Below the pieces are notes generated by a model. That model saw nothing but the letters and a program-made list of their open reading frames with translations, was not told where the DNA came from and did no database searches. A program made the position numbers and the translations under genes. Shown piece after piece: positions 3,631 to 40,399 of a stretch of DNA of 64,000 nucleotides (position 1 is the stretch's first letter; each line of letters begins with the position of its first letter). Location: contig JYIP02000010.1 of assembly GCA_001051155.2 (NCBI GenBank), forward strand, positions 1,269,542 to 1,333,541. The letters run 5' to 3'. This stretch comes from Chrysoporthe austroafricana. Its lineage: Eukaryota; Ascomycota; Sordariomycetes; Diaporthales; Cryphonectriaceae.

Positions 3631-4642
3631 CCGACCGTCTATGCAGCTATATAGACCATTACCGTTTCCAGGCAGCTGGGAGTGGTCACTCCTTTTAGCT
3701 GCCTTTCAGAAGCTCTTTTCCCCGAGCACAAAACTCTTGGCAGAGCTTGACTAAGTACAGATGCCGCCAGGAGATCAGGTTTCCAGCCCATAGTAAAAAT
3801 GGCTTCATTCTTTCTTTTCTTCTCCCCCCTCCCCTAAATCTACGCCCAGCCTGCTCCTTTGCTCTAGGATGGCTATTATCTAAAGGGATGCTTCATTCTG
3901 AAGGCTGACAATACCAAGTTGTCTGTTTGTATATTTGTCAAGTATCGTTTGTGCATTTTTCACGATTTTATTCACCGGCTGAGAAAAGAGGCCAGGTTCA
4001 AGCTCTGGCTCAGCTTTAAGTTTAGTGGGCCTTGAAGTTGCCAGGCCGACAGAGGCCATCGTCGATAGCTGGCCTCTGGAAACGCTCTACCCCTTTCCCT
4101 CATGCTTGAATGCCCCTGGAAATACCAGATCCAGCGATTATAGAAGTAGTAGTATAAGCTGAGGAAGCTGCCGCACAAGCACTGCACTCTACAGCTCTGG
4201 GCTTGGCTCTTACATTATTAATGTGGAAATGTAATACCTGGTGACCACAGCTGCTATGGTTAGCAGCTTTCCTGAGAGGGCGATGGGGATGTGGGCCACG
4301 GAATCGCTCCTCGAGGCGATATTTCGTCCCACATTGCATCGGAAGACATTCCTCGGGGGTGCCCCGATGGCTTCCGGGGAACCTTGACACGCTAATACGG
4401 ATTTGTTTTTAGCGACGATATCGACTAGGGTTTCTCTCTGTACAGGCCCGTGGCATTGTACATACCAGCCTTTTTGTGTTACTCCCCGTTGGAAGATCGG
4501 CATGTTTCTGCTCTTTTCAATCAATATGTGATCCAACTTTTATATACAGCAGCATCCTCTTGAGATCACCTTATTCTCAAAACAAACGTTTGCTATTCTA
4601 GATGTCTCCTAAGAACTCACTACGCCAATATCCCAAAAGACG
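3631..4642. other. Intergenic, upstream of the sugar kinase
   Basis: About 1 kb of GC-balanced sequence. Three short minus-strand ORFs overlap each other in different frames between 3972 and 4536; none resembles a known family and no splice model links them convincingly. I see no transposon sequence. The part next to 4643 is the likely promoter and 5' UTR of the kinase gene. Confidence 0.5.
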
Positions 4643-5881: not shown

Positions 5882-6121
5882 GGAGTTGATGAAAATAGAG
5901 TGTATGCACGAGGCGCGGTGGGTGGGAATTTCTAGATCATGGATATTTGTCTGCGTGGTGGCCGTCAATCATGGGTCAAGGCTAGGTCAAACAGTAGACA
6001 ATAAAATGGTATTGATTTCTCTAGAAAACGGTGGCTGTAACATCCTCCTACAGCCATATGGATTTTGGAACGATCCGCCTGTGACATGAACCTGGGTGTG
6101 GGCTCTTTCTGACCATCACCC

Positions 6122-8482
6122 TCAACAGGATAGTGATGAAAATGGAAAGATGGGGTTATCTGACCTGTGGTTGTCTTCTAGCAAGTTTGCCTTAACATTG
6201 CGAAGGATTGCTAGGCAGTGCGATGTCACGCCATTTTCCTTGGCTGATTGGATGAGGGCAGACTCTGCCTTTGCAATCAAGAGAGGCGTGTCCATAATCT
6301 GGCCATGTTTTGGCAAGAACTTCGCCAACCCGGGCGTAGCCAGTGCGAGTATCAGGGTAAGTGCAGCACCCCATATCCTGGTGCAGGTTAGAACCGTTCC
6401 TGAGGACCAAGATAAGTTTTTGATGCCAGCAGACAATGAAGGCTTACATGTGCAGCTCAAACCAGTCTCGACGTCCCAGGCTCTCTTCAGACCAGTGGGC
6501 ATCATTTCCAAGGATGATCAGGCCAGCACACTGCAGACATCTGTAGCATGCATCATATATCCAGAAGGGTCGTTTTTCTGACTCTGGATTTCCATTTGGG
6601 GACCTCGAGTCACCACCGTCCAAAGGAGCTTCAAAGGTCTCGTGAGCAATGTAATACAGGATAGGGCGGCACATGAGGAATTCGAGGATGTAGAACTTGA
6701 GACGCAAGTGAGCCTACCCACAGATAGTCAGATAGTCAAGCGATTATGCTGTGCGAGATCAAAAAAGAAGGGGGAAAAAAAAGAAGAAATGAGGGGGGCT
6801 CACCGGCAAGTCAGGTAAAGGGTTTGGGATTGTCATCGCAGAACTCAGGTCTCGCGGGAAGTGCCACTCGAGAGGGAGGTTCTCAAACCAGTGGGTCAGG
6901 TCTGCCTTGAGCTCGGTGAGCGAGTTGACGAGCATAGGCGGCTGCGAATAAGCCTGTTCAATGGTGTACATTTGCGCTAGGACTCGATTTTGTATGTCGG
7001 AGACGGCAAAGGTAGCCTCGAGAAGGGTTTCTGCAAGTTCCTTGTTTGCTATCTCCCCCGCAGCCATGTTCAAGTACTCAGTCTCGACATCCCTTAGCGA
7101 CTTCATGACCAAGTCGTTGTTTATCAAGGGAAAGGTAGCTTCGGACGGTAGCCCATCCATGGTTAGGAGGATGTCACTAGGTGGATGATACTAATCAGAC
7201 ATGACTTCTCGAACAATATGCCCTCCTGACACTGACCTCTCTATGATATGATGAAGTTTCAAGCAGTCTTGAAACCGCTCCAACCACCATGGTTCATTGA
7301 CCTGTCTGAAGATGCATGGAAAGCAGTGAGACGAAGATCTTGCAGGCTCTCGCGGACAATTGGGTGGACATAACTCACCTCCTTCCACAGCGGCCGAGAC
7401 GATCACCGGCAGCTTGGCTAAGTTTGAGAGCCCCGACGGGATAGGCCTCTGACATCAGAAGATGGGCACCCAAGATCAAGAAGGCAATCGAATCATCGTC
7501 TGGCGCGAAGAGCAGCTCTCCGACTTTGGCGTACGCACACTTGAATGCCTGCTGCTGCAAGTCTTTTGCCATGATATCTACCGTATCATGACAGGATTTC
7601 TGATATGCCCCGCGTGCTGCCAGACTAATTGCTAACAAGAGCTGACAGCTGCACATATTCAGGGACATTTGTCTGCCACCACCACCCGTGTAGGAAGGTG
7701 TAGAGCTTGGAGTAACAGGGCAGGGTGGAGATCCTTGCGACCGAAGCGTGGACAGGATGTTGGAATGACGCTGTAGCATTTCACCGAGGAGGAAATCAAT
7801 GCCGGTGCAGTTGGCTTGGATGCGTGCCAGGTATATATCCACCGCAGTCGCGTCTACCTCAACTGGGCCACCTAGAGACAAGCACGGGATGCCACCGCTC
7901 TCGGTCTCCTCGATATACTTAAGAGGACTGACGCCGTCCATCGTAATGCTCATGTTGATCCTAGGCCAATAGAGGAGCATCTTATGAGAGGATGCAGTGT
8001 GAAAGAAGGGTGTCTGCCCGTAGAGGCTGGAGTGAAAAGGTTTGGTCAGCAGTTTGTATTCATTGAACAGGTCTAGCAAGATTATGTCCAACCTCTTTTC
8101 CTGGTGGCTGCCAGATCCTAGAGCATCCAACAGCGATGGGCTCTGCTGAGAGCGTAACCACGTTGCACCAAGGTCCGACGCCGCTCCCATCCTGGCCTCT
8201 AGGCGGTCCAGCCGATCTAGGAGTGTTTGCTCATTTCTGCGGCTTCATCAGCAATGAGCTCGCGATGCCCCGCCGCGGTAATAAACAAGAACCGGGAGGT
8301 GAACCCGCTCACAGGGATTGAGACTGCTCGGCAACGCTCGTCCGGTAGACGCACTGCCCGCCGGTAGTCCTGCAGTAGGAGCACGAGGGCCGCTCGGCGT
8401 CGCATCTGGTCTTGCGTGCTCTGCATGTGTTACATGCGGTATTTGTCTTCGACTTGCGTATTGACTGAGTGCTAGATGCCAT
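6122..8482 (-). CDS. Zn2Cys6 binuclear-cluster transcription factor
   Basis: Six exons on the minus strand: 8313-8482, 7379-8236, 7237-7305, 6804-7176, 6448-6713 and 6122-6377, giving 663 residues. The introns are 60-90 nt with GTGAGC, GTGAGT, GTCAGT, GTGAGC and GTAAGC donors; all phases agree. I start at MASSTQ; another ATG 60 bp upstream (8542) is in frame. The Zn2Cys6 motif has cysteines at residues 17, 20, 27, 34, 37 and 44 (C-x2-C-x6-C-x6-C-x2-C-x6-C). A leucine-rich linker follows (NEQTLLDRLDRLEARM). The middle region carries the fungal regulator pattern, including LKFYILEFLMCRP and, late, IWGAALTLIL. Nuclear DNA binding at CGG triplets is expected. Its place inside the island suggests it controls the neighbours; that is inference. 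The last intron acceptor (6378) was chosen because it continues the frame. Confidence 0.83.
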
Positions 8483-9178
8483 TTTTTTCTTGACACGACT
8501 GGTCCGACAAAGAGGAAATAGTAGAACGATAGCGTCAGCCACGGCCTTCTCCCTTTGGGAAAAGAAACAGAAGTATGATGTGAAGAAGCGACGTGGGGAT
8601 GCCCCTCCCCGCTAGGAGAGGAAAGGATTCGCGCCCTGTGGGGCTCGGCTGCAAGGGGGGAGTAGAATCTGCTAGTCATGGCAGGACCTGATAGACGATT
8701 TCTACTGTGCAATGGCACATGGCAGCACCTTACTGAGTAGTTACCTACAACACTCTTGCCACCAGTGAAACTCTAATATAATATCAGACTTTTGGGCGGT
8801 CCGACGGCAAGCATGGACGCACACTTTAATTACCATGTCCCCAAGTGTGTCTCTCTACATTACAAAGCCCGATAGAGTATAACTCATAAATATGACACGA
8901 CGTACAGCCATCGGAGACATTTCTTTCACCACCTTTTCTACGACGGCTACATATGCTATACAGATTGCAGAACCGGAGTCAAACGTATTCGAGTAATTAG
9001 GAGCTGGGGGCTTGAAATAAAACTTGCCCGTTGGGAGTACTTTGATCATGACCAAAGTAAGCTGAGAGAGAAGAAGAAGAAAAATACACATGAGTAAAGA
9101 ACAAAATAGATTTATTTGATGAGTATCTTTAGCCGTGGTGGCAGAAGCGTACACATAACCCCCTCAGTACTGTATGCA
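8483..9178. other. Intergenic between regulator and SDR
   Basis: About 700 bp of GC-balanced sequence holding the regulator promoter (near 8483-8800) and the SDR 3' UTR. Short ORFs here overlap on both strands and match nothing I recognise. I see no repeat. Confidence 0.5.
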
Positions 9179-10270
9179 CTACGATGTAGCAGCAGGGTGC
9201 TTCCAGGAACTCGCACCGCCATCAACCAACAGATCCTGGCCTGTGTACCAACTGCTCGCCTGGCTACACAGGAACAGCATGCACCCTTTCAGCTCTTCCG
9301 GGTTTCCAACTCTTCCAAACATTGTCTCCTGTTCCACCTGTTTGGCAAATGCAGGAGTCTCAGCTGCGACCTTCTTGTACATGTCTGTTCGCATCGGTCC
9401 CGGGGAGAGCGAGTTCACGCGGATACCGTAGGGGGCGAGTTCCATAGCCATTGGCTTCACGAGGCCACGGATGGCAGCCTTGGAAGCCGAGTAGACGCTG
9501 ATATTCTGGACGACGGTGGGGATATGTGAGGCGACACTGGCGATGAAGACAATGGAGCCCGTTGATGTCTCTTGGCCTGGGGTAGCAGCGCCTAGACGCT
9601 CGCGCTTACGCACCATGGCGTTGGCACAAGCTTGTGCGACGAGAAAAGAGCCGACGAACTAGGAATGGGAATCAGTACTCGCACATCTTACAGAGCTGCC
9701 CTTGAAGAATAACACTTTCCGGAGAACAAGGGGGAGAGGGACGCGATGTCTCACATTGACGCCAAATGTCGAGCTTAGATTTTTGTCCGTAGAGGTCAAG
9801 AACGGCTCATCTGTCACGACGCCAGCCGCGTTCACACTACAGACATGATCATGGTCAGTTCAAGTGGAAATGCAATGAAAAGAAAGAAAGTTGCCCTCCT
9901 CGAGAAGGCCCAGGGAAGAAATGACTGACTTGATGTCGACACTGCCAAATTCCTGCTCGATTTGGTTGATGGTAGCAGTGACCTGCTCACGGTTGGTGAC
10001 ATCAGTCTTGTAAAATTCGACCTTGACGCCGTACTTGTTCCGGAGCTTGTCTAAATTTTCGCCGGGAGAGCCCACATCTAGCACAGCGATGTTGGCTCCC
10101 GCCTCGGCCAGCACGTCAGCAAAGGCCAAACCAAGGCCCCGGGCTGCGCCAGTGAGGACTCCTGTCTTTTTTTTGACTGAGAACTAAGGGTGAAATGTAA
10201 AGTCAGCAGGCACGTCTCACGCTGTGTGGCGTTAGAATTGGGTGTGAGGGCGGATTAATACCTGCTCCAT
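9179..10270 (-). CDS. Short-chain dehydrogenase/reductase (classical SDR)
   Basis: Four exons: 10262-10270 (only Met-Glu-Gln), 9930-10183, 9755-9836 and 9179-9658, encoding 274 residues. The introns are 78, 93 and 96 nt and all phases agree. The Rossmann TGxxxGxG motif is TGAARGLG at residues 14-21; Asp39 at the end of strand beta-2 (AVLDV) suggests NAD(H) rather than NADP(H). The NxAG motif is at 90-93, Ser156/Ser159 lie in the active-site strand, and the catalytic pair is Tyr171/Lys175 in YSASK. The RVNSLSPGPMRT and YTGQDLLVDGG blocks are standard for the family. Close relatives act on sugars, polyols or ketones, but the substrate cannot be read from the sequence. It is transcribed away from the oxidoreductase gene at 10958, sharing a ~690-bp promoter region. 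Confidence 0.9.
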
Positions 10271-10957
10271 TGCGACTCAAAAATCAGTTAGTCTTTTTAG
10301 TTTTCTAGGCTCACTCCAGTAACAGCAATCACCGTTACCAGAAATCCCGCAGTGAAACACAGAAATGTCTTTATATAAGCCCTTTTGCTGGAGAAAAAAA
10401 AAAGTTGTTATGCTTGAACGGCATTCTCTATATCACGCTCACGCAAGCCTGCTCTATATCCTTGGGGTTGAGAGTGCACCGTTGCTGACTTTCTCCACAT
10501 GCGAACACCTCGGGGGGCCTCCCTCGGAGTGGGGCCGACATCATGAGCTCTAACTCTATAAGGCATCGGATACACAGCGCCTATAGGCCAAGGTTTGGGC
10601 CCCTAAGTAGTCAGGCAATCACATAGTAGATTTCAGTGAGCCAGCGGTGCTGTGCTGACCCAATGCTACTTCCTAACCCATTGCCGAAACTTGCCTCTTG
10701 TGTTGGGATATGGTCATGCGAATCCATGGCGTAATACCCCTCGGGATCTCCTCGGACTCTCCTCCGTCAATGACTTTGAAGTACACGCGCTCATTGTATT
10801 CGGAACTAGAGCTCGGAGTGATAAGTATTTATACACACCAGCACATGCGCCGAGACGGTAATACGATGGATGTAAAGGCATAATATCTCGTCACCACAGC
10901 TAACTCTCTCTCAAACAGACTTACAACTTTTTTTTACTTAATAGCTCTTGCTTGACT
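10271..10957. promoter_or_regulatory. Shared divergent promoter region (SDR / oxidoreductase)
   Basis: This 687-bp gap separates two divergently read genes. A TATTTATA box lies at 10826-10833, about 125 bp before the oxidoreductase ATG. Two CGG triplets in direct orientation, 10 bp apart (10801-10803 and 10814-10816), would suit a Zn2Cys6 dimer such as the one encoded next door. Binding is a guess; CGG pairs arise by chance in sequence of this composition. Confidence 0.35.
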
Positions 10958-12112
10958 ATGGCGGACTCTAAATTCCACTGCCGTTGGGCCTTGCTGGGCC
11001 TCTCCAGCATCGCCACCACTTTCGTTGAAGACCTCTTGCTACGCCGCGATGAAAGCGACCCCATAACAAATCAGATCGCCTGCGTCTCCACAACTGGCAC
11101 GGTCGAGCGAGCACAGAAATGGCTCCAGGACTGTAAAGCCCCAAATGCCCAGGATGTTACCATATTCAAATCGGCTGACGACATGCTCCAGACGGGCAAC
11201 TTCGATATCGTCTACATCTCCACCCCACATCCCCTACATTACCAGGAGACGTTGGTAGCCCTACAGAACAGGCGGAACGTGTTGGTCGAGAAGCCTGCGA
11301 CGATGAATAAGCTTCAGTTCCAGAGACTGGCAGATGAGGCAAAAAAGGCAAACGTTGTGCTCATGGAGGCGATGTGGACACGATACCTCCCTGCTGTATT
11401 ACATCTGCAGCGCGAGGTCCTTCCGAGGCTTGGTAGCGTCAAGCGTGTCTTCTCGGACTTATCCGTCCCCATCGTCTCCAAGGACATGCCTATTACCTCT
11501 AGGCTCCTTGACAAGAAGGCTGGGGCAGGCGCGCTGTTGGACATGGGAGTCTACGCGCTTACTTGGGCGGACATTGCATTTGGCGGTTCCGACAAGGCCA
11601 CGGTAGCATTTGCGGAGACGGTTCCGTACAATACTGGCAAAGAATTTATCGACGACATCAATACGATTGTACTCACTAATTCCGACAATAACGGTGCCGT
11701 CGCTATCGTCACCACCAGCCTGACTCTAGCCGGGTCCACAAAGGGTGCCGACAAACTGGCCGTGAAGAAGGTTGCACCAAGCGTGCGCATTGAGGGCACT
11801 AATGGGCAGGTGTCTGTCCCATTCCCCCTGATTAGACCTCAGGAACTGCAGGTAGAGTGGTATGAGGATAAATACCTCGATGCGTCCGGGTCCGAGGCTC
11901 GCGAGGTCATCTCAATGCCAGTAGAGCGCGGATGGGGCCTCTGGTACCAGGCGGACGTGATTGCAAAGGCGGTGAGAGACCGAAAGCGAGGAGGGGCTAC
12001 AGCTTCCGGCATGGTCATTGGCGAGGAGGAAAGCTTGCGTGTCCTGGGCTGGATGGATACTGCAAGGCAGATGGCTCACATCTCGTACGACAAGGAGTCT
12101 GAGGCGGTCTAG
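10958..12112 (+). CDS. Gfo/Idh/MocA oxidoreductase, dihydrodiol/D-xylose dehydrogenase type
   Basis: A 384-residue protein from one exon; the first ATG is at 10958 (MADSKF, A at -3). The N-terminal Rossmann fold has GLSSIA at residues 14-19 and STPHPLHY at 88-95, followed by the hallmark EKP at 111-113. EAMWTRYLP at 137-145 and DMGVY at 195-199 match the dimeric dihydrodiol dehydrogenase / NADP-dependent D-xylose 1-dehydrogenase branch; Tyr199 corresponds to the proposed catalytic tyrosine there. The C-terminal half is the usual beta-sheet domain. Levoglucosan dehydrogenase of bacteria belongs to the same superfamily, but I see nothing that assigns this protein to it. It shares a promoter region with the SDR and is followed in the same direction by the MFS transporter. 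Cytosolic; no signal peptide. Confidence 0.91.
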   Translation: MADSKFHCRWALLGLSSIATTFVEDLLLRRDESDPITNQIACVSTTGTVERAQKWLQDCKAPNAQDVTIFKSADDMLQTGNFDIVYISTPHPLHYQETLVALQNRRNVLVEKPATMNKLQFQRLADEAKKANVVLMEAMWTRYLPAVLHLQREVLPRLGSVKRVFSDLSVPIVSKDMPITSRLLDKKAGAGALLDMGVYALTWADIAFGGSDKATVAFAETVPYNTGKEFIDDINTIVLTNSDNNGAVAIVTTSLTLAGSTKGADKLAVKKVAPSVRIEGTNGQVSVPFPLIRPQELQVEWYEDKYLDASGSEAREVISMPVERGWGLWYQADVIAKAVRDRKRGGATASGMVIGEEESLRVLGWMDTARQMAHISYDKESEAV

Positions 12113-12718
12113 AACTAAGTACTGTAGACACTACCATTTCAAATACGGCTCTTACATTCTATCCCATGTCTAGTAGCACTCAAACAGTTAGACTCGTGAA
12201 TATAGGTACGAACGCTACATTGATGGGATGCTCACGTGGACATCCCTTCGTCTCGACGTTATGCATTCGACATGGACTTGGGCTATGTCATGCAAGCCTG
12301 GTTGAATCCCGGACCACGAGTACCTCTGACCAAGGATTACCGTCGCTTCCCAGCCACAAGTGCTTTCAGGGTCTCGCTTAGCTATGGTACCAAGTATCGG
12401 GGTGCTCCGAGATGTACCTCGGACACCGCTCCGATCTACAAATGGGCCTTGTTCCCGTTTATTTCAGACCAATCCACCCAGGCATCACTCCTCACAAAAT
12501 ATGGAGACCAAAAATTAGGAAATCTGGGGTCTGGAGTCTGGAGTCTGGGGTATGGGGAATGGGGAATGAGGTACATATTGTTATATTGCGACTCTCCCCG
12601 TGCTCTGGCGAAGTCTGTAAGAATACAGCCACAGCTTAGCCATAATCTGCGAGGAGATTATCCAGCACCAGAACTTCTAGATCAGAATCAGCAACCCCGG
12701 AGGTGGGACAGGACCATC
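12113..12718. other. Intergenic with short G-rich tandem repeat
   Basis: About 600 bp before the transporter. A small direct repeat of TCTGGAG/TATGGGGAATGGGG words lies at roughly 12524-12570. The rest is presumably the 3' UTR of the oxidoreductase and the promoter of the transporter; no gene is supported. Confidence 0.5.
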
Positions 12719-14666
12719 ATGGGAACCAAGCAGCCCTACTTTGGCCTTCGAGGCACCAAACTCAATGTCGCCATTGCCGCAGTGGCGGGCTTCGATATGC
12801 TGTACGTGTTTCTGCCCAGCCTTTGTCCCGTAGCTACACTGATGCCTATGGACATTGATAGTCTCTTCGGTTTCGACCAAGGTGTTATCGGGGGACTTCT
12901 GACATTGGACTCCTTTACCAAGACCTTCCCGGAGATATGCACCACAAAGGCGTGCACGGCTGAAATGACGCCAGCGGAGGCGAACCACCAGTCCATCATT
13001 CAAGGTGAGATGGTTAACGTCTCCCCCTTGGAAACATGATAATTTCCCCCTACGACACACACACAAACTTATCGCAACTAGGCGTCTCTGTTTCATCATA
13101 TAACCTTGGTTGTTTCTTGGGCGCTCTCCTTACCATCTTTGCGGGCAATAAACTCGGACGCAGAAAATGCATTCTGTTAGGGTCGGCGATCATGGCCATT
13201 GGAGCTATCCTGCAGTGCTCCGCGTTCTCTCTCGCCCAGCTGATTATCGGGAGAGTCATTTGTGGTATCGGAAACGGCATCAACACCTCGACTGTTCCTA
13301 TCTGGCAGTCGGAATGTTCCAAGACGCATCGCCGCGGGCAGACTGTCATGGCAGAGCTGTGCATTGTCGTAGGTGGTGTCGCACTCAGCTACTGGCTCGA
13401 TTTTGGCTTCTCTTATCTCGAGCCGTCGACTGCCGCGTGGCGTATTCCTATCGCCCTCCAGCTGATCTTCACAATCTTCGTCCTCACCACTGTCATGGCC
13501 ATGCCCGAATCACCCCGATGGTTAGTTCTTCAAGAACGGGACGACGAAGCAGCATCGGTCCTTGGCATGATATACGATCTTCCTGTCAATGATCACTACG
13601 TTGCCACAGAACTCGAGGCTATTCGGGTCACAGTGCGTACCTCGACCCAGGGAAGCTTCCGAGACCTGATTACCATGGGCAAGAAGAAGAACCTTCAGCG
13701 AACCTTGCTGGCATATGGTACGTTTTGAGCTAGCAGGCATATATTGAAACGCGAATCGCTTACAAACCCCTCGCAAAACAGGCATTCAAGTTCTCCAACA
13801 AGTGACTGGAATCAATCTGATCAGTACGTACACTACAAGAACCCTCACTCAATCAGCATTGAAATTGAAGGGCGGGCTGCTAAGACATCTGGGATGACAG
13901 CGTACTATGCAGCGACCATTTACGAGAACGAGATTGGTTTATCGGGCTTTATGTCTCGAATCCTCGCTGCGTGTAATGGAACCGAATACTGGCTTGCTAC
14001 CATTCCCGCAATTTTCCTCGTGGAGAAGCTCGGACGCCGCCCTTTGCTTCTCACTGGCTCGGTTGGAATGGCTCTGTCCATGACCGTCCTCGCCGTTAGC
14101 ACGAGCATCGATGGTGTGGGTCCTGGTATTTGCGCTGCAGTCTTCCTCTTCGTATTCAACACCTTCTTTGCGTTGGGTTGGTGCGGTCTGCCCTGGCTGA
14201 TCCCAGCCGAGCTTGTTCCTTTGGAGATTAGAGCTCAGGCGAACGCGCTCTCGACGTCGGCCAACTGGATCTTTAACTTCATGGTGGTACGTGGATGCTT
14301 GTTGTGGAAACACATGCTGAGTATGTGTTCCGTGCTAAGTCCTTCGGATAGGTCATGATCACGCCTGTGGCTTTCGCCTCGATTGGCTGGCGGACATACA
14401 TCATCTTTGCCGTCATCAACGCTGTCTCGGCGCCAATCATCTACTTCTGCTACCCCGAGACGGCATGCCGATCGCTGGAGGAGATGGACATCATCTTTGC
14501 GAAGTCCAGTGGTGTATACAGCGCTGTACACACAGCAAAGTCTGAACCCAGACACTATGGGAGACGCGGAGAAGTACTGCGTGACCTGTTGCCGGACGCG
14601 TGTGGACAAGGCACGGAGGACATAAAGGAATCCACCTGTGTTGAGATGTTGGAGAAGAAGCCTTAG
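12719..14666 (+). CDS. MFS sugar/inositol-type transporter
   Basis: Six exons: 12719-12801, 12862-13004, 13082-13717, 13782-13823, 13901-14286 and 14352-14666, encoding 534 residues. The introns are 60-77 nt, with donors GTACGT (four times), GTGAGA and GTACGT-like forms, and all phases fit. Diagnostic sugar-porter motifs in order: FGFDQGVIGG in TM1, NKLGRRK after TM2, an arginine-containing PESPRWLV before the central loop, QQVTGINLITYY in TM7, EKLGRRPLL in the loop after TM8, and PETACRSLEEMD at the end of TM12. Twelve membrane helices are expected in the plasma membrane. Substrate class is probably a hexose, pentose or related sugar taken up with protons. It follows the oxidoreductase by 606 bp in the same direction, so it is not an operon member but fits a co-regulated cluster. 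Confidence 0.92.
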
Positions 14667-15231
14667 ACTGGTAGACTGCCTTGGTGGAAGTGCGTGTCAT
14701 TCCCTGAAGCACAACCTCTATACCAGTAATATGGTCCTTAAAGACGAAGAAGCGAGCACGGAGATAAGTGTATCTTGCTGGAAGGCAATCTACAAATGCT
14801 AAAGCCCAACGCAAGGTTGCCAGCCCTAGGCAAAGCTTCGAGAGCTCAGATTGCCAGGGCACTGCCGATATAGCGAAAATCGCGAGCGATTTCGAGCTCA
14901 AGAACTGAATAGCGCCTGGCCTGCCAAATAATGCGGGCCGAAACTACGCGCCGCTTACGGTATCCCGCGGTTTTCACCAGCCCGTATTCGCAAGCGCTAT
15001 TCTAGTTCTCTCGCTATATACGCCTCTGGTCTGGCCGGTATGGAGGCTGGAAGGCTGGCTGGGCTGGAAGGCTGGCTGGCGTGAAAGGATAGCCAGTCTG
15101 GCCAGTAGAGGCTCCTTTTTGAGCGGCTTAATTTCTAGCATTTATCTATAAATAGTGCTTAGATAGAAGATTCTTTTGCGCTAAGCATATAGACAGACGG
15201 CTTGCTGGCCTGGAAGGCTTGTCGGCCTATC
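14667..15231. other. Right edge of gene island, short GGCTGG repeats
   Basis: Composition falls from balanced to AT-rich across this stretch. Short tandem words of the GGCTGGAAGGCTGGCT type occur at about 15045-15085 and again near 15200-15225. A minus-strand ORF at 14491-14901 overlaps the transporter's last exon and looks like a shadow. No gene is supported. Confidence 0.5.
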
Positions 15232-15775
15232 CTTAAGTAAAAGTGTCCTCAAGGTAGAGGACAGTTTTTTTGCATGGGCAAAAATTTGGCACTAATAAAA
15301 ACCGGGGGTAGAGGATCGTTTTAAAATTATACAAACTGTACTCAACCCGTTTTTCAAAATATTTGCATCGCTTCAATTCGATCTCTTATCTATCCAATAT
15401 AGTCTATAATATATCTAAATATAAGAATTATATAACGTTTAAGAGGATCGCAATTGCAAATCCTAAGTTTTTATTCAGAAGATTAATAAGGCAAGCCTTA
15501 CTTTTTGAAATAATTAATCAAAACGAAACGGGTTTTATATTAATCTTAATTCGGAATTCTAATTAAATAATTAACAAATTAAAGAACTTTCTATATTATT
15601 CTTAACCCGTTCGCATTTCTAATTAGAAAATAAATTAGTAAAATAGATAAGAAAAAAAGTTAAAACTTGCTATCCTTTCAAATTCCTTTTTCTATATATC
15701 GTAAATATTTATTTCAAATATAATTAATTAAATCTATTTATTTATTTTTCATTTTTAATTATATATTATAATATA
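15232..15775 (+). repeat. Dispersed repeat R, full-length copy (544 bp)
   Basis: It starts CTTAAGTAAAAGTGTCCTC and ends in TATATTATAATATA. A copy of the same 544 bp lies at 48545-49088 and a truncated one at 48215-48544. Near its left end is a small hairpin, GTCCTC-AAGGTA-GAGGAC. The TTTTTTTGCATGGGCAAAAA and ACCGGGGGTAGAGGA words suggest the terminal region of a DNA transposon of the pogo/Fot1 kind, but I find no transposase and cannot confirm terminal inverted repeats. It sits exactly where the gene island gives way to AT-rich sequence. Confidence 0.6.
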
Positions 15776-19222: not shown

Positions 19223-19635
19223 TGTTATAAACGCTGCAGTAAATCCTAAGACGTACTATAGAGTTAAGGGGTTTATACTAATAAGAGCGGTACCAAATAC
19301 GGGTCTTAAGCTTCAGGACAAGTTTACTTATATATCGCAATATTCATAAGCCAATACGGCTATCAATAGTAGGGTCCAATTGATACTTAGATTAATAACT
19401 GAAGAACTATCTATCTATCCGGCTAGTAATTCTCCTAGCCTTATATATCTAATCTTTTAATCCTTAGCTTATAGTTGCTTACTGGAACTTGCTGCTACTT
19501 ACCGAATCCCGGTAAGCTAGGCTAAGCCCTAATAACCCTAACCCTAGGTTACGTAATCTTTGCGGGATATGCTTCTTTATTATCTGGCCTAAGTTCTGTT
19601 TGGGGTTTCTTTCGTTTGCATATTAATTCATAATA
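19223..19635 (-). repeat. 3' LTR of A2 (413 bp)
   Basis: Bounded by TGTTATAAACGC and ATTCATAATA, the mutated 10-bp inverted terminal repeats. CCCTAACCCTA lies at 19536-19546. Confidence 0.93.
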
Positions 19636-19831
19636 TTATCCCCTTTCTATCGGGTATTATCCCTAATACTATTCCGTAAATGCCTTTATATAATAATCTT
19701 TTCTTTACGCTTTTCTAATTAAGATATCCTATAGAGTTATTAAATCTTGTAATCCCGTATTTATTCTTTTTTCCAAAAGCCTTGCCCGTTTTGAGCGATT
19801 TTCATTTATCGAGTCCCGGGAATACGAAATT

Positions 19832-20373
19832 ATGCCTTATTCTTTTTGTTTTGAAAAGGGCTTATCGTATTGTATAGTAGACGGGGTTAAGAGTTATTCC
19901 AATTGTACGAAAAGGGAGCGTTCTTGCAATGCTGGACGGGTTCCGTTATTATTTCGTAAGTTTCTTTCTAACTTATTTCCTTTATTCCTTTTCCTAATCC
20001 TGCTATAGTATTACGAGTTACTAATAAATTGTCCCGGATTGATAATCGTAAGGTTAAAGAAAAGGGGCGGCTTCTAGAATTCCAGTTTCGCATAACCGAA
20101 TCCTTGGCTTATCTTGCGCAGCTAAAGAAATAATGCCGCTTCTTTCAAGAGAAAGGGATAAAGTTAGTAAATTAAGGTCTGGAAAAGGAAGAGCGTAGCC
20201 GTATGGCTATCGAAATGCAAGCGGTAGTTTCTGAAAAGTTCGCAGCTGCTATCGCTAATCCTTCTTTTAGTAGTTTTGATTGGAATTCCGTAAGTATTGG
20301 TAATTTTGTAATGGATTGGTCTGGTTTTTTGGGTAAGGCTAGTTCCTGTCCTGAATCCGGGCAATCTTTTTAA
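19832..20373 (+). pseudogene. Antisense six-Cys/coiled-coil gene of A2, with 53-nt intron
   Basis: This gene runs against the element, from ATG at 19832 to TAA at 20371-20373, and ends 44 bp from the pol stop. Exon 1 (19832-19955) encodes MPYSFCFEKGLSYCIVDG and then NCTKRERSC, a C-x-rich start that with RIP-type Tyr-to-Cys reversals reads as six cysteines in a C-x2-C-x7-C ... C-x2-C-x6-C layout. The intron is 19956-20008: GTAAGT donor, CTAAC branch site, CTATAG acceptor. Exon 2 gives VTNKLSRID, a charged region with coiled-coil character (ITESLAYLAQLKK, GLEKEERSRMAIEMQ), and a C-terminus ending CPESGQSF. The intron length (53 = 3n+2) is exactly what is needed to join the two frames. In-frame stops at CAG/CGA-type codons kill this copy. 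Function unknown; a nucleic-acid or zinc-binding role is inferred only from the Cys pattern. Confidence 0.65.
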
Positions 20374-20416
20374 GTAATTCGAGTAAATAAAGCTTTTATA
20401 AGCTTATTCCTTTTCG

Positions 20417-23400
20417 TTATTGTTTATCCAAATAATCCGCTAATATTCGGGATGCATTCTGTAAGTTGGATTTAAGCTTCTATAAATTCTTACTTGCCGG
20501 GTAGCCTTTCCATTTAACGAAATATTCGGAATTGTAATCTAGTCCGCAATACTTAAGGATTTATTCGATTTCGTATTCTGGCTTATTACTTTCGATTTAG
20601 ATATTTTTATCTATTTTAATTGATTTTAATATTAGTTCGAGAAGCGAGATATGGAATACCGGATAGATTTTTATTCTATAAGGTAATGCAAATTTAAAAT
20701 TGATATCTGAGATTTTCCTTAGAATTCTGAATAGTCCCAATTTCTTATAATCCAGTAAGTAAAAAGGTCTTATTATTTTAATATAATTTTTCTGTCGAAT
20801 AAAGTAGATTTTATCTCTTTCTTATAGGATTAGTCTTTTAATCCTTTTAAAGTTAGCATATCTTATTATTCTTTCTTGTACGAACTTTAGTTCTTTCTGG
20901 AATTCTTTTTGAATTTTCTTAATTTTTCTGATTCGTTTATCTATAGCTTCTGCATTTGTTCTTAGTATTTCGTTATAATAGGCTATCGGGTTATAGCTAT
21001 AGAGTATATAGAATAGTAATTTTTTCGTTATGCTTATATTTATATTATTATATGCAAATTGCGCTAGGGGTAAGAAATCGATCCAGTTATCCTATTCGTA
21101 ATTTATATAGTATCGTAAATATTGCTTGATAATCTGGTTAATTCTTTCCGTTTGTCTATCCGTTTATAAATAGAATGCTATAGATATTTTCTGTTATATT
21201 CCGAATAGCTTTGTAAGTAAGGTCCAGAAGTTTGATACGAACTTTCTGTCTTTATCGGAAATAATTTCTTTAGGCATGCCGTAATTGGCTATAACCGTTT
21301 GAAAAAACGTATATGCGAATTCTTCCGCTATGCTGCTTTCTTTATATAGTAAGAAGTAAGCATACTTGCTTAATTTGCAAACTATTATTAGAATGTTATT
21401 ATACTGTATTCTAGTTAAAAGTTCTCGTAAGAAAGGTAACTTTATAATAAAGTCTTAGCTAATGGATTGCCAAACCGTTTCTGGAATCGGGAATAGTTGG
21501 AATAAGCTATAGGGCTTATAGTATTCAATCTTATTCTTCTTGCAGCTATTGCATTCTCGTAAGATTCTTTCGATTTTTTGTCTGAATCCTAGCAAGTTCT
21601 AGTATCTTTTGATTCTTTCGTAAATAGCTCTAATTCCTTGGTAATTATATGCTAGTATATTATGCATGGTCCTGATATATTCGTCCTGTTTTTCGGGAAT
21701 TATATTTTCAGGATTTCTTTCCCGATTTTCGATTCTGATAATCGTATTAAGTTTTCTTGTTTCGTTTACCAGGCTGCTATCTTTATCCTGCCTGAAGATA
21801 TTCTGCAATTCTTTGGGTTCCGTATCCTAATAATCTGATTATCTGCTAAAGGCGTCCGCTTTGCCGTTTTCTGATCTTTTGCAATATACGATTTTTAAAT
21901 CAAACTATAAAAGGAATTCTGCCTATCTGATTTATCGTTTATTCAAGATTTTTGTTATTATAAATATTATTAAGTTTTTGTAATCTGAATGTACTATTAT
22001 TTGGTATTTTATTCCGATTAAATAGTACTGCTATTTTTCAAATGCTTTAATAATTGCTATTAGTTCTTTATCCGGGATACCGTAATTAAATTCTAAGCTA
22101 TTCAGCTTTTTTGAGAAATTGCTTACGATCTTAAGGTATCTTTAGTTATCTTGCTAGCTTAATTATCTGCCAAATACGTAATCTGATATATTAATTTCAA
22201 TTTTAAATGGTTTGTTTGGGTTTGTTTCGTAAAGTATAGGTTCTGATATAATTCGTTTTTTGATTTTATCGAATACTTCTTATATTTCCTTAATCTATTC
22301 GAATTTGCAGTCTTTTTTCGTAAGGTCCGTAAGTAAGCATGCGATCTTGCTATAATCCCGAATGAATTGCCGGTAGAAATTGGCATAGCCGAGGAATATT
22401 CTAATTTCTTTAATTTTTCCTAATATAAGCTATTTTTCCATTATTCGAACCTTATCTTTTTGCATACTAATTTATCCTGGTTCGATAGTATAGCTTAAAT
22501 AATTAACTTTTTATTAATAAAACTGGCATTTGCTTAATTTTATAAAAAATTTATTATCCTATAATATTTGGAATACTTATCGTACGTGCTATTTATATAA
22601 TGCGAGGTTTTTGGAATAAATAAGGATATTATTAAGGTAGACGATAACGATAATATCTAAGTATTTACGGAAGATATCGTTAATTATTTCTTGGAAAGAT
22701 ACGAATGCATTGGTTAATCCAAAAGGCAAGATTATATATTCGAAATATCCATAGCGGGTCCTGAATGCTATTTTCTAAATATTGTCTTCTTTGATCCGGA
22801 TATAGTAATACTTTTCTTTGAGATCTAGTATAGTAAACTATTTTGTTCCTGTCAAACAATCTCGCATTTCTCCTATCAATAGTAAGGGATAGCGGTTTTT
22901 AATCGTAATATCGTTAAGTTGCCAATAGTCCATACAAAATTGTAGTTTGCTATTTTTCTTTAGAACGAATAGGATTGAGTATCTTGCTAGTAATCGTAAT
23001 TTCCGTATATAGCCTTTCTTGAGGTTTTCGTCGATATATTCTTTAAATGCCTTGAGTTTTGCCTGATTAAGCTTATAGATAAAGTAGTTTTGCAGCTTTA
23101 TCCTTTCTTTCAATAGGATCTTATAGTCGAAAGGGCTATATTCGAATAAGCTATTGTCGAATCTTCTTTGCTATAGCTTCTTGAATTCGTAATATTCCCG
23201 TAATACATTTTTAAGGTCTGGTAATAGGCCTTTTTCGTTTTCTGCGATCTGTAGGAATATAAAGTATTGCTATGCATACCTTGTTTCGTTAGCTTCTTAT
23301 TTCTGGGATTTTTTCGTTTCTAGTAGTTTCGGGTATTTATCGGGTGCCGAGCCGAATTGCCTTCTGGCATATTCGTACTGTAAGAGCTGTATTTCTTTAT

Positions 23401-26000
23401 AGTTCTATAATCTATATTCTCTCGTATTATTCCGTACTTAACCAAACTTTTGTTAGTCGATAATTACTTATAGTCTTGGTCTATCCCTAATTTTCGTTTG
23501 GAAGTTCAAGGTATCCGTAACCTTTCCCTATATCGTGGCTTGTTTTCTTGCTTTAAAGGTACTTATAAGCCTATTTGAGCGCATTTCGCTTATGCTATCC
23601 TTAATAACTAAATCTCTTCCTCTACTAATAATTGCAACCTTTTCAGTAGGTATAGCTTATTCCTATAAAATCTAGCCAGTAGTCCAATCGATTCGAGGAT
23701 TATATTTTTTAAGTTAAGGTATTTCCAAAATCAATTTATATTATACCGTATCTGTAATATTAAAGGTAATATTCGTTATAAGGCTTTGGATTAAAATAAG
23801 TAGATAATCAGTTTTCATATCAATTATTCCTAGGTTATATATAACCGATTTTCTTTCCATAATATTAAGTCTGTAAGGATTTTTCTTTTATATCTAAGGA
23901 ATTCGTTCCTTATTAACGATTTCTGGCGAAATGAAATTTCCTTATACGCTACTGTCCAGTAATGCGCTATATCGTTATCCTTTAATATATATATCCAGAA
24001 TGATATATTCTTCGTTTTTTCTGGTAGTAGCATATAGGGACTTCCTAGTCCTGATCGGCTATTATCCCATTACAGGCGATCTTTCCCTTTTGGGGTATTT
24101 CGGGCGTTTCTCGCTACTTGTTATGCTAGCTTCCTTGCTTAGGCATGGTTTCGCTACCGATTTTTCTCGATTTTCTGCAGCTTATGCCAGTCTTTAGCCT
24201 TATCCTATATATATATAGAGCATGCTATTACGTAATATTGTCTTTACGTAGTCTTTCTATTAATATATGCTTGAAGGCAATTATCCGGTAGCCCAATATA
24301 TGCGTTATTGTTTTCGATATGCAAGACTTTTCTGTATTTTCTTCTTTCTTCCGTAATAGGATAAATCAATTGGTTCTATTCCCTGAATGGGAACTAATCG
24401 TATTTAACTTTCTCGCTAAAATATATCTAGTAATTATAATAAATATAGCTAATCCAGGCAAATTCATAATAATAAAAGTATAAGTAACTAATCCTTCCGT
24501 TTTCTTAGGGTAGGCATTCGCTATTCTAAAATAATATGCTTTGGAAGAATTCTTTTATCGTAAGCCTATAAATGATATGCTTAATTTCCGTATATTTGGA
24601 TATCCATTTGCTGCAATTTTAGCAGTTCTTTTGCTAATAGTAAGCTATTTCTTCTGATAATTCTTTATCGGGAATTAGAATTAGTAGGTTATCCGGCTAT
24701 TTGTCGGGGTATACTGATTCCTCGATAGTATTGCTAAGTATTGGTAATCCTGATTGTATAATGCCGATTTCTTCTTTTATTATACTGCTCTATTATCGTT
24801 TCAGATAGTAATTCAAAGGGTATTTCCTTAAATCTTCCTTACTTTGCGAGAGCTTTTCGCTAGAGCAATCGGAATTGCTATCTTGGATAACAGTATTATA
24901 AAGTAAGCCCTTCTTGCTTATAGCGAATTATCGTTTTCCTTAAAGCTTGCGTAAGAACTATCCTAAACCTTCTTTTTCTGAAAAGTGCAATACGCAATAA
25001 TTGTAATAGCAAGCTATCTAGCTAAGATTGCTATAATTAGGGTTCGCTATTTGCTTTAATAGGATATTTTTGTTTAGCTAATTGGGTTCTTGCTGCCAAG
25101 CGATATTAAGCTATTTCTCTAGGACTAGCTTCTATTCTCGCTTTTTTCGTTCCTATTGGCAATTACGGGCAATATAACCTTTCTTACCGCAATTGTAATA
25201 AGTAATCCCTTTTCGTTACTTACGTATAAAGGTATCTAATTCTATAAGCCTAATATATATAATGCCCGAATAGGCTATGCTATTCTTGCCCTTATATTAG
25301 AATTTGCGCTTCCCAGTATTTGGCTGATATTACAGGGTAATATTATAGTTTTTCTGCCGTTATTATCGTTATTCATATAATCTATTATCGATTCGGATTG
25401 CTTTATTAATAAACTCGCTAAGTTTTTCAAATCGGTTTTCCTTATAAAATTTATCTTTGATTTCTTCCTTAAATCTTGCGTAATAGGCATCCATAAGAGG
25501 TTTGTCTTTATAATCTAAGTAGGCTACGATTTGCTGGAACCTGGCTATATAATCCGAAACCGAACTGGTTTGTCGAAATGCTTCTAATTGCCGTATTGCA
25601 ATGCGTTATTTATCCGGATCTCTAAAAGTTTTGATAAAGGCCGATTCGAAATTGGCATAGCGTTAAAAGATGCATTTGGTATTTTCCGAGCGAAATTCTT
25701 TACTATTATCCAAATAATTGCGGAAGGTTGGTTCTTATTATTGGAAAGCCGTTCTTTCAAAACGACTTCTTGCGAAATCGATTTTGTTATAAGTAATCCT
25801 GAACTGGGGTCCGTAATGCTTGAAATAAGCTTTGAATTGTATCAAGAAAGCTTGAAAGTCTTTTCGAATGCTTTTATAAGGGCCGGGTTTATCGAGCTTG
25901 AAAGCTTTTGTTTATTGGAAGGCGTTAAGGCGGATAACTTTATTTTTGACTTTTTCAAATTGTTAATACAGAGCCATATTCTGTTACTGGAATTGCTCAT
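20417..26000 (-). pseudogene. gag-pol of A2 (RIP-degraded)
   Basis: Read on the minus strand. Gag lies at about 24.9-26.0 kb; a zinc-knuckle region is near 25.2 kb. Reverse transcriptase is recognisable at 22.5-23.2 kb; the open piece 22838-23113 reads GYIRKLRLLARYSILFVLKK, the fingers/palm region. The YxDD catalytic box is YLNN at 22628-22639, both aspartates lost by G-to-A. RNase H follows at about 21.8-22.2 kb. The integrase HHCC and DDE region lies at 21.1-21.8 kb, with a chromodomain at 20425-20590. Pol stops at TAA, 20417-20419. The long plus-strand ORF opposite gag (25588-26016) is a shadow. Confidence 0.85.
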
Positions 26001-26132: not shown

Positions 26133-26545
26133 TATTATAAACGCTGCAATAGATCCTAAAACGTACTGTAGAATCAAGGGGTTTATGCTAACAAGAGCGG
26201 TATTAAATACAAGTCTTAAGTTTCAGGACAGGTTTATTTATATATCGCAATATTCATAAGCCAATGCGGCTATCAATAGTAAGGTCCAATTGATATTTAG
26301 ATTGACGACTGAAGAACTATTTATCTATCCGGCTAGTAATTCTCTTAGCCTTATATATCTAATCTTTCAGTCTCTAGCTTATGGTTGCTTACTGGAATTC
26401 GCTGCTGCTTACCGAATCCCGGTAAGCTAAGCTAAGCCCTAATAACCCTAACCTTAAGTTACGTAATCTTTGCGGGGTATGCTTCCCTATTATTTGGCTT
26501 GGGTTCTGTTTGGGGTTTCTTTCGTTTGCACGTTGGTTCATAATA
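26133..26545 (-). repeat. 5' LTR of A2 (413 bp)
   Basis: Starts TATTATAAACGC and ends GGTTCATAATA, followed directly by CGTAT. CCCTAACC at 26446 is the telomere-like word. Confidence 0.93.
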
Positions 26546-31868: not shown

Positions 31869-32281
31869 TATTATGAACGCTGCAGTAAATCCTAAGACGT
31901 ACTGTAGAGTTAAGGGGTTTATGCTAACAAAAGCAGTACCAAATACAAGTCTTGAGCTTCAGGATGGGTTTATTTATATATCGCAATATTTATAAGCCAA
32001 TGCGGCTATCAATAGTAGAGTCCAATTAATACTTAGATTAATAACTGAAAAACTATCTATTTATCCGGCTAGTAATTTTCCCAGCCTTATATATCTAATC
32101 CTTCAGTCCCTGGCTTATAATTGCTTACTGGAATTCGCTACTGCTTACCGAATCCCGGTAAGCTAAGCTAAGCCCTAATAACCTTAACCCTAAGTTACAT
32201 AATCTTTGCGAGGTATGCCTCCCTATTATCTGGCCTGGGTTCTATTTAGGGTTTCTTTCGTTTATACGTTAATTCATAATA
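31869..32281 (-). repeat. 3' LTR of A3 (413 bp)
   Basis: Starts TATTATGAACGC and ends AATTCATAATA. The telomere-like word is ACCTTAACCC at about 32181. Confidence 0.92.
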
Positions 32282-32477
32282 TTATTTCCTTTCTATCGAA
32301 TATTATCCTTAATACTATTCCGTAAATGCTCTTATACGGTAGTTTTTTCTTTACGCTTTCTTAATTAAGATATCTTATAGAGTTATCAAGTCTTGTAATC
32401 CCGTATTTACTCTTTCTTCCAAGAGCCTTGCCCGTCTTAAGCGATTTTCATTTATCGAGTCCCGGGAATACGAAATT

Positions 32478-33019
32478 ATGCTTTATTCTTTTTGTTTTGA
32501 AAAAGGCTTATCGTATCGCATAGTAGACAGGATTAAGAGTTATTCCAATTATACGAAAAGGGGGCGTTCTTGCGATACCGGACGGGTTCCGTTATCGTTT
32601 TATAAGTTTCCTTCTAACCTGTTTCCTTTATTCTCCTTCCTAATCCTGCTATAGTATTACGAGTTACCAATAAATTGTCCCGGATCGATAATCGTAAAGT
32701 TAAGGAAAAGGGGCGGCTTTTAGAGTTCCAGTTTTGCATAACCGAATCCTTAGCTTATCTTGCGCAGCTAAAGAAATAATGCTATTTCTTTCAAGAAAAG
32801 GGGATAAAGTTAGTAAACCAAGGTCTGGAAAAGGAAAAGCATAGCCGTATAGCCGTTAAAGTGCAAGCAGTAATTTCTAAAAAGTTTGCAGCTGCTATTG
32901 CCGATCTTTCTTTTAGTGGTTTTAATTGGAATTCCGTAAGTATCGGTAATTCTGTAATGGACTGGTCTGGTTTTTTGGGTAAGGCTAGTTCTTATCCTGA
33001 ATCCGGGCAATTTTCTTAA
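32478..33019 (+). pseudogene. Antisense six-Cys/coiled-coil gene of A3
   Basis: Same 542-bp gene as in A1 and A2, from ATG at 32478 to TAA at 33017-33019, again 44 bp from the pol stop. The N-terminus reads MLYSFCFEKGLSY and then YTKRGRSCDTG. The 53-nt intron is at 32602-32654; its donor is ATAAGT, a TpG-to-TpA change of GTAAGT, and the acceptor CTATAG is kept. The second exon has the longest open piece (GLEKEKHSRIAVKVQAV, then FNWNSVSIGNSVMDWSG) and ends YPESGQFS. Stops at former CAG/CGA codons and the lost donor make it dead. Confidence 0.62.
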
Positions 33020-33062
33020 GTAATTCGAGTAAATAAAGCTTTTATAAGCTTATTCTTTTTCG

Positions 33063-36000
33063 TTATTATTTGCCCAAATAGTCCGCTAATATTTGGGATG
33101 CATTTTGTAAGTTGGATTTGGGCTTTTATAAATTCTTACTTGCCGGGTAGCTTTTCTATTTGACGAGGTATTCGGGATCGTAATCTGGTTCGCGGTACTT
33201 GAAAATTCGTTCGATTTCGTATTCTGGCTCGTTACTTTCGACCTGGATACTTTTATCTGTTTTGGTTGATTTTAATATTAGTTCGAGAAGCGAGATATAG
33301 AATACTGGATAGATTTTTATTTTATAGGGTAATGCAAGTTCAAAATTAACATTTGAAATTTTCTTTAGAATCCTGAATAGTCCTAATTTCTTATAATCCA
33401 GTAAATAAAAAGGTCTTATTGTTTTAATATAATCTTTCTATCGAATAAAGTAGACTTTATTTCTTTCTTATAGGATTGGTCCTTTAATCCTTTTGGAATT
33501 GGCATATCTCGTTATTCTTTCTTATACGAATTTTAGTTCTTTCTGAAATTCTTTTTGAATTTTCTTGATTTTTCTGATTTATTTATTTATAGCTTTTGCG
33601 TTTGCTTTTAATATCTTATCGTAATAGGCTATCGGGTTATAGCTATAGAGTATGTAGAATAGTAACTTTTTCGTTATGCTTGTATTTATATTGTTATATG
33701 CAAATTGCATTAAGGGTAGGAAATCGATTCAGTTATCCTATTCGTAATTTATATAGTATTATAGATATTGCTTGATAATCTGGTTGGTTTTTTCCGTTTG
33801 TCCGTTCGTCTGTAAGTGGAATATTATGGATATTTTCTGTTATATTCCGAATAGTTTCGTAAGTAAGGTCTAGAAGTTTGATACGAACTTTCTATTTTTG
33901 TCGGAAATGATTTCTTTAAGCATACTATAATTAGCTATAACTATTCGGAAGAATATATATGCGAATTCTTCCGCTATATTGCTTTCTTTATATAGTAAGA
34001 AATAAGTATACTTGCTTAATTTGCAAACTATTACTAGAATGCTATTATATTGTATTCTAGTTAAGGGTTTTCATAAGAGGGGTAATTTTGTAATAAAGTC
34101 CTAGTTAATGGATTGCTAAACCGTTTCCGGAATCGGGAATAATTGGAACAAGCTATAAGGCTTATAGTATTCAATCTTATTCTTCCTGCAGCTATTGCAT
34201 TCTCGTAAGATTCTTTCGATTTTTTGTCTAAGTTTTAGCGAGTTCTAATATTTCTTAATTCTTTCGTAAATGGCTCTGATTCTTTGGTAATTATATGCTA
34301 GTGCATTATGCATAGTCCTGATATATTCGTCTTGTTTTTCGGGGGTTATATTTTTAAGATTTCTTTCCCGATTCTCGATTCTGATAATCGTATTGAATTC
34401 TCTTATTTCGTTTACTAGGCTGCTATTTTTGTTTTGCTTGAAGATATTCTGCAGTTCTTTGGGTTTCGTATCCTGGTAATTTAATTATCTGCTAAGAGCG
34501 TCCGCTCTGCTATTTTCTGATCCTTTGCAATATACGATTTTTAGGTCAAACTGTAAGAGGAATTCTGCCTATCTGACTTATCGTTTGTTCAAGATTTTTA
34601 TTATTATGAATGTTATTAAGTTTTTGTAATTTAAATGTATTATTATCTGGTATTTTGTTCCGATTAGATAGTACTGCTATTTTTTAAATGCTTTAACAAT
34701 TGCTATTAGTTCTTTATCCGGGATACTATAATTGAGTTCTAGGCCGTTTAGCTTTTTTGAGAAGTTACTTATAATCCTAAGGCGTTTTTAGTTATCTTGC
34801 TAATTTAATTATTCGCTAAATGCGTAATTTGATATATCGGTTTTAATTTTAAATGGTTTATTTAGGTTTGTTTCGCAAAGTATAGGTTCTGATATAATTT
34901 GTTTTTTAATTTTATCGAATGCTTTTTGTGCTTCCCTAGTTTATTCGAATTTGCAATCTTTTTTCGTAAAGTCTGTAAGTAAGCGTGCGATTTTGCTATA
35001 ATCCCGAATGAATTACTAATAGAAGTTAGCATAGCCGAAGAATGCTTTGATTTCCTTAGTCTTTCTTAATATAAGCTATTTTTCTATTATTCGAACTTTA
35101 TTTTTTTGTATACTAATTTGTCCTAGTTCGATAGTATAGCTTAAGTAGTCGACTTTCTGCTAATAAAACTAGCATTTGCTTAATTCTATAAGAAACTTAT
35201 TATTTTATAGCGTTTGAAATACTTATCGTACGTACTGTTTATATAATGCGAGGTTTTTGGAATAAATAAGGATATTATTAAAATAGATAATAACGATAAT
35301 ATCCAGGTATTTGCGGAAGATATTATTGATTATTTCTTAGAAAGATACGAGTATATTAGTTAATCCAAAAGGCAAGATTATATATTCGAAATATCTATAG
35401 CGGGTCCTGAATGCTATTTTCCAAATATTGTCTTCTTTAATCCGGATATAGTAATACTTTTCTTTGAGATCTAATATAGTAAATTATTTTGTTCTTATCA
35501 AACGATCTCGCATTTCTCCTATTAATAGTAGGGGATAGCGGTTTTTGATCGTAATATTATTGAGTTACCGATAATCCATACAAAGTCGTAATTTGCCGTT
35601 TTTCTTTAGAACGAATAGAATTGGGTATCTTGCTAGTAATCGTAATTTCCGTATATAGCTTCTCTTAAAGTTTTTGTCGATATACTCTTTAAATGCCTTG
35701 AGTTTTGCCTGATTAAGCTTATAGATAGGGTAGTTTTGCGGCTTTGTCTCTTTTTTCAGTAAGATCTTATAATCGAAAAGGCTATATTCGGGTAAGCTAT
35801 TATCGAATCTTCCTTGCTATAGCTTTTTAAATTCGTAATATTCCCGTAATATATTTTTGAGGTCTAATAATAGGCCTTTTTCGTTTTCTGCAATCTGTAA
35901 GAATATAAAGTATTGCTATATGTACTTTGTTTCGTTAGCTTCTTATTTCTAGGGTTTTTTCGTTTCTAGTAATCTCGGGTATTTGTCGAGTGCCAAGCCG

Positions 36001-38740: not shown

Positions 38741-38778
38741 GTATATACTGGACCGATCTCGAATAAGAGTTATCAAAA

Positions 38779-40307: not shown

Positions 40308-40399
40308 TTTTAATAATTCTTATTTAAGAACGGTTTAGTATATACCTTTTGGATAATACCGAAATACGATAGCATTTTAGATTTTATCTTTTTCCAGTA

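Follow-up and report, generated by a model that had tools for sequence, protein, structure and literature searches.

A two-exon gene antisense to pol in three copies of a chromovirus-type element

A 64-kb stretch of DNA from Chrysoporthe austroafricana (the window), within a contig of a genome totalling 48.15 Mb, contains three copies of a retroelement with long terminal repeats (LTRs), referred to here as family A. All three carry a two-exon frame that is antisense to pol and located between pol and the 3' LTR. This antisense gene is the subject of the present analysis.

The element that hosts copy 1 of the gene lies on the minus strand. LTR comparison places its 3' LTR at 19225–19635 and its 5' LTR, 89% identical to the 3' LTR, at 26135–26545, and the remains of gag-pol are found at 20417–25841. 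Seven stop-free pieces of gag-pol were scanned against Pfam: four match Retrotrans_gag, RVT_1, rve, and Chromo, and three have no such match. Only the Retrotrans_gag match (E 1.7e-5) is above its Pfam cut-off, while those to RVT_1 (E 1.3e-5), Chromo (E 1.3e-4), and rve (E 0.0028) are under theirs; the Chromo match is a 26-residue piece that scores 22.2 bits where 25.1 are required. The low scores of the pol domains can be explained by the pol pieces being short and damaged by repeat-induced point mutation (RIP). With gag, reverse transcriptase, integrase, and chromodomain all represented, the host element fits the chromovirus type. The second family A element spans ∼31870–39191, and the third (∼1–2726) is cut by the window edge.

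The initial annotation had described 542-bp copies of the frame pair at 19832–20373 (+), 32478–33019 (+), and 1576–2117 (−). These could be recovered. The copy at 19832 shares 88.7% identity with either of the others in a gap-free alignment, and the 53-nt segment that was said to part the two frames (19956–20008) does join them in phase when removed. The start at 19832 had to be revised, since the frame is open for 36 codons further upstream to a conserved (M/I)S.RV.KS motif at 19724 in copy 1, 32370 in copy 2, and 2225 (minus strand) in copy 3. This start motif is common to relatives in other fungi, e.g., the proteins P0012, P0013, and P0038. Copy 1 thus extends over 19724–20373 (+), with exon 1 at 19724–19955, the intron at 19956–20008, and exon 2 at 20009–20373. 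Copy 2 extends over 32370–33019 (+; exon 1 32370–32601, intron 32602–32654, exon 2 32655–33019) and copy 3 over 1576–2225 (−; exon 1 2225–1994, intron 1993–1941, exon 2 1940–1576). Two further details did not survive closer inspection. The GTAAGT 5' splice site ascribed to all copies is present only in copy 1, as copies 2 and 3 have ATAAGT and GTAAAT, respectively. Furthermore, none of the three joined frames is open to its end: a TAA at the same codon breaks each of them (20131–20133, 32777–32779, and 1818–1816 on the minus strand), and copy 1 has a second TAA at 20173–20175 and has lost its start codon. The frame was correctly placed beyond the end of pol, and it stops 43 nt from the pol-frame TAA (20419–20417), close to the 44 bp noted. 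On its other side, the gene starts 88 nt inward of the 3' LTR in copy 1, and the start motif is 79 to 91 nt from this LTR's inner end across the three element families of the window.

Three segments can be recognized in copy 1, all on the plus strand. A Zn2Cys6-like segment (19838–19927) has six Cys/Tyr positions with the spacing CX2CX6CX8CX2CX6C. A coiled-coil segment (20014–20178) matches residues 44–98 of the Cytospora mali relative P0001 described below, within the helix predicted for residues 39–124 of that protein. The C-terminal tail (20191–20373), which is acidic in relatives, holds the stretch FDWNSV...DWSGFL.

Conservation and selection across genomic copies

Two genome searches, each with 40 of 77 candidates scored, located family A copies at no fewer than 48 distinct places. 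All except C16:5418075 were aligned (47 copies), and the pattern of variation fits selection on the antisense frame. Over 19724–20373 the exons are free of gaps, save for the first base in one copy that ends at a contig end. The intron shows four distinct gap patterns, gaps are common above 19720, and the spacer together with the pol end (20374–21000) again has four gap patterns.

RIP produces transitions and not transversions, and transversion sites were therefore chosen for counting. At antisense codon positions 1, 2, and 3 we found 3, 2, and 13 such sites out of 199 each (Fisher p = 0.0013; permutation p = 0.0006 for the codon-position bias), numbers that come from few sites in related copies and are not a dN/dS estimate. 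Sites present in at least three copies are distributed as 2, 1, and 7, and the intron has 7 transversion sites in 53 positions. In the adjoining pol end, used as a control, 13 of 18 transversion sites fall at the third positions of pol itself, the same fraction as in the antisense gene. The bias follows the antisense codons, and pol ends before the gene, so the frame is not a by-product of sense coding.

Most copies are damaged. Internal stops occur at ten codons that encode Gln, Arg, or Trp elsewhere in the alignment, as expected from transitions, and a single copy of the 47 is free of them from 19832 onward. The start codon at the motif is kept in 7 copies, lost in 39, and cut off by the contig end in one. 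GT and AG are each retained in 40 copies, and both together in 34. The six N-terminal cysteines that the initial annotation had deduced are only partly borne out, as every copy has Cys or Tyr at all six positions and five Cys are retained in 13 copies, but none has six. Because no family A copy keeps all six, the six-cysteine reading rests on relatives.

The third-position bias and the absence of exon indels argue for codon-level selection on a protein. Together with the relatives found elsewhere, they uphold the earlier proposal of a real accessory protein of the element, and the antisense frame is almost certainly a protein-coding accessory gene.

Divergent relatives in other elements of the same genome

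The window also contains elements of two other families, and in each of them a divergent relative of an intronless type occupies the equivalent place, on the minus strand and antisense to pol. The relative in the element at 53569–61052 is broken (60049–60483) and the one in the element at 39898–47250 heavily so (46237–46743), the 3' part of the gene not being delimited in either extent. Their start motifs lie 79 and 91 nt beyond the inner edges of the respective 3' LTRs, and the two are matched by the protein P0006 with E-values of 1e-30 and 2e-9, respectively.

A genome search with P0006, scored among 483 candidates, gave at least 150 matches. Thirteen of 150 loci were examined: the five without a reported stop, and eight others taken at intervals along the ranking. 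Pol pieces were found just past the gene on the opposite strand at 12 of these 13 loci and on the same strand at none.

One uninterrupted relative (L064:2963–3622, minus strand) has normal GC content and 220 codons between stops. An LTR-like stretch is present on the 5' side of this relative, and no pol match was obtained near it at E 1e-4; two pol-piece matches at E 0.014 and 0.088 were not counted as pol. The locus is either an element remnant or a gene retained alone.

Relatives in other fungi

A profile built from seven copies retrieved 11 proteins. The best relative is VM1G_10407 of Cytospora mali (P0001; E 1.6e-60, 64% identity), which has all six cysteines and joins the two exons at the same place as the family A gene. 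Two wider protein searches, with ∼8000 candidates scored in each, returned at least 37 and at least 49 proteins, and no Botrytis proteins were among the matches listed. Six sordariomycete taxa were looked up and belong to Diaporthales (two), Hypocreales, Sordariales, Amphisphaeriales, and Glomerellales, so that the relatives span Sordariomycetes of at least five orders.

We aligned 36 relatives chosen from the search listings. The six-cysteine pattern is present in 32 of them, the exceptions being P0057, P0058, P0060, and P0063. The spacing is mostly CX2CX6CX8CX2CX6C, and CX2CX6-8CX9CX2CX7C in the intronless types. Eight of the 36 rows have additional residues precisely where the intron falls, which would be expected of an intron left unspliced, and most relatives have an acidic tail bearing DW. 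The relatives in other fungi probably also reside in elements. Three of them (P0001, P0053, and P0062) are called "Zn(2)-C6 fungal-type" in their source annotations.

Zinc-cluster and coiled-coil features

The Zn2Cys6 family (PF00172) has the spacing CX2CX6CX5-16CX2CX6-8C, and the six-cysteine pattern that 32 of the 36 aligned relatives fit is compatible with it. Zn_clus is also the Pfam family matched most often, by 13 of the 36 relatives with E-values of 1 or less and a best E of 0.001. The bit score is 18.1 for one of the 13, and 11.6 and 9.2 for two others, compared to a gathering score of 21. The one Pfam match given by two family A readings, to DUF7050 (E 0.19), was considered meaningless.

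Structure comparisons gave weak matches, 12 of 13 with Foldseek and all eight listed entries with VIA-align being Zn2Cys6 DNA-binding domains, and a PDB profile search (likewise weak) named zinc-cluster regulators for 10 of 30 chains. These comparisons point weakly to DNA-binding domains of the Gal4/Leu3/HAP1 type. In agreement with the coiled coil proposed to follow the cysteines, a long helix is predicted in the modelled relative P0001. The median charge is +5 for the zinc segment and −10 for the tail, and in most intronless-type relatives the zinc segment is near-neutral.

CGG half-sites in six LTRs showed no excess over dinucleotide-preserving shuffles (P 0.13 to 0.57). Compared to simple shuffles they were above expectation in all eight window LTRs and below it in the LTR-like piece of L064.

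Mosaic pattern within the gene

The zinc segment of P0001 is 49–57% identical to seven proteins of a broad type and 30–38% identical to five of the intronless type. For the tail this is reversed, with 23–42% (28–36 positions) to the broad type and 56–64% (48–50 positions) to the intronless type. The helix sides with the zinc segment (33–49% vs 24–35%), although the ranges overlap, and the Cryphonectria proteins P0007 and P0012 have the same zinc/tail combination as P0001. This pattern suggests that zinc segment and tail have been exchanged by recombination inside the gene, a reading weakened by the gapped alignment of the tail.

Proposed function and alternative explanations

Based on the predicted domains, the gene might encode a minimal Gal4-like transcription regulator, to which we assign a probability of roughly 0.5. 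The deduced protein (∼200 residues) starts with a basic N-terminus, continues with a Zn2Cys6-like cluster and a predicted long coiled coil, and ends in an acidic tail that contains tryptophan, which is how a minimal Gal4-type transcription factor is laid out. It is the combination of zinc cluster, dimerising coil, and acidic DW tail that makes a small regulator, one of the options named in the initial annotation, the likeliest reading. The promoter for antisense expression would lie within or at the 3' LTR, given how near to it the gene starts, and the transcript would be spliced once in family A. The protein would then enter the nucleus, bind zinc, and bind DNA as a dimer, and it could tune transcription of its own element, related elements, or host genes nearby, by either activation or repression.

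The same layout could belong to a zinc-binding coiled-coil protein that is not a transcription factor and helps the element to assemble particles, to reverse-transcribe, to enter the nucleus, or to choose its targets, perhaps together with Gag or the integrase chromodomain. Conservation equal to that of pol, the long coiled coil, the near-neutral zinc segment of most intronless-type relatives, and the weakness of every structural indication of a DNA-binding domain would fit such a protein, as would the nuclear or pre-integration roles proposed for plant antisense open reading frames (ORFs) (PMC7264820). The order of zinc cluster, coil, and acidic DW tail is, however, that of fungal regulators, and the structural matches, weak as they are, mostly share one fold, which makes this explanation somewhat doubtful. 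Accessory proteins of retroelements can counter host silencing, the alternative raised in the initial annotation, and conservation in elements under strong RIP would suit a silencing antagonist; yet the protein has no match to any such protein, and we find this role unlikely.

It is less probable still that the frame is incidental and the antisense RNA itself acts by pairing with the sense transcript to feed or block silencing. The geometry is convergent, and a role of this kind has been considered for plant elements (PMC7264820), but the third-position bias and lack of exon indels mean that the protein is selected, and cysteines and tail persist across orders. An RNA role could exist alongside the protein. 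Recent capture of a host regulator gene by the elements is likewise very improbable: Zn2Cys6 proteins are abundant in fungi and the uninterrupted L064 copy has no detectable pol, but that copy is still preceded on its 5' side by an LTR-like stretch, and any capture would have to be ancient because the gene occurs in three element families of the window and has relatives in five orders. Finally, the three window copies are both broken and related, as a chance open frame retained through shared ancestry would be. The distribution of indels and of transversions, judged against pol as the control, speaks against such a frame, as do the relatives and the recurrence of the gene beside pol, and it can be regarded as extremely improbable.

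Other features of the window

The region 4000–15000 of the window is an island of GC ∼0.5 amid AT-rich, repeat-laden sequence. It holds genes for an AnmK kinase (4613–5881, +; E 3.4e-77), a short-chain dehydrogenase (9179–9658, −), a GFO/IDH/MocA oxidoreductase (10904–12112, +), and a sugar transporter (13018–14358, +), which may together form a group for amino-sugar catabolism. The nested elements are flanked by a direct repeat of 549 bp (15227–15775 and 48540–49088; 89% identity), perhaps the LTRs of another element. The regions 49000–53500 and 61000–64000 have a GC content of 0.12–0.24 with strong A skew, and they match one another and themselves in many registers at ∼72–74% identity.

Comparison with known antisense genes and zinc-cluster regulators

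Antisense genes of LTR elements are an already known kind. In fungi, Zhao et al. (2011; Virology 417:248) reportedly described brtn, an antisense gene of the Boty-like retrotransposons of Botrytis cinerea. Although such genes have long been recognized in plants and Botrytis, they have no known function (PMC7264820). This agrees with the initial annotation's statement that no function has been described, but that statement passed over brtn of fungal Boty as an antisense gene already known. The LTR element in which brtn lies in antisense includes a chromodomain in its gag-pol (PMC4227169), and brtn is also cited as the antisense gene of Boty (PMC8365987); it sits between pol and the 3' LTR (PMC7264820). 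A Monilinia transcript resembling truncated Pol and BRTN (PMC5987419) hints at transcription of brtn. The family A gene resembles brtn as an antisense gene between pol and the 3' LTR of a chromodomain-bearing Gypsy element of a fungus, a comparison by place and orientation. The hosts differ, Botrytis being a leotiomycete whereas the family A gene and its named relatives are from sordariomycetes where looked up.

The plant aORF-3R genes include Grande gene23 and those of RIRE2, Retand, and PvRetro13 (PMC7264820; PMC11963269). Like these, the family A gene is antisense between pol and the 3' LTR, is kept in most copies, and has conserved coding, and a nuclear or DNA-binding role has been proposed for both. 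Unlike it, the plant Retand gene encodes a TRP28 domain and its element is no chromovirus (PMC11963269). No domain common to plant aORF-3R and the family A gene was found in this analysis.

With Gal4, Leu3, HAP1, and PUT3, the antisense protein shares six cysteines of compatible spacing followed by a coiled coil, as well as weak profile and structure similarity. Zn2Cys6 regulators typically have a large middle domain. The antisense protein is without one, has only ∼200 residues, is encoded by an element, and is under the Pfam cut-off where its score is shown. We found no Zn2Cys6-type antisense gene of a fungal element in the literature searched, which was mostly outside subscription papers, and its absence from print is not claimed. 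The intron, the spread, and the mosaic pattern, like the Zn2Cys6-like layout, were not encountered in these searches. The recognisable protein layout and the many relatives make the function testable in laboratory yeast or Neurospora. If the protein is indeed a regulator, some fungal proteins annotated as "hypothetical" or "Zn(2)-C6" would be element genes and not host regulators.

HBZ of human T-cell leukemia virus type 1 is a spliced bZIP protein. It is encoded by an antisense gene with its promoter in the 3' LTR (PMC7264820), and the protein is covered in PMC11963269. The family A gene is likewise antisense, starts from the 3' end of a retroelement, and has a proposed regulator as its product; this is an analogy, with no homology claimed, and it differs in having a zinc cluster instead of a bZIP domain and a promoter whose position is inferred. 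Tentatively, and with some doubt, we suggest that many Sordariomycete chromoviruses carry a minimal Gal4-type transcription factor of their own. It would be translated from an antisense RNA that arises at the 3' LTR, with or without splicing, and would control expression of the element much as HBZ does in its virus, and its DNA-binding half and acidic tail would be swapped between element lineages by recombination so that its targets can be rewired. If the product is a regulator, fungal retroelements would have arrived independently at an HBZ-like arrangement.
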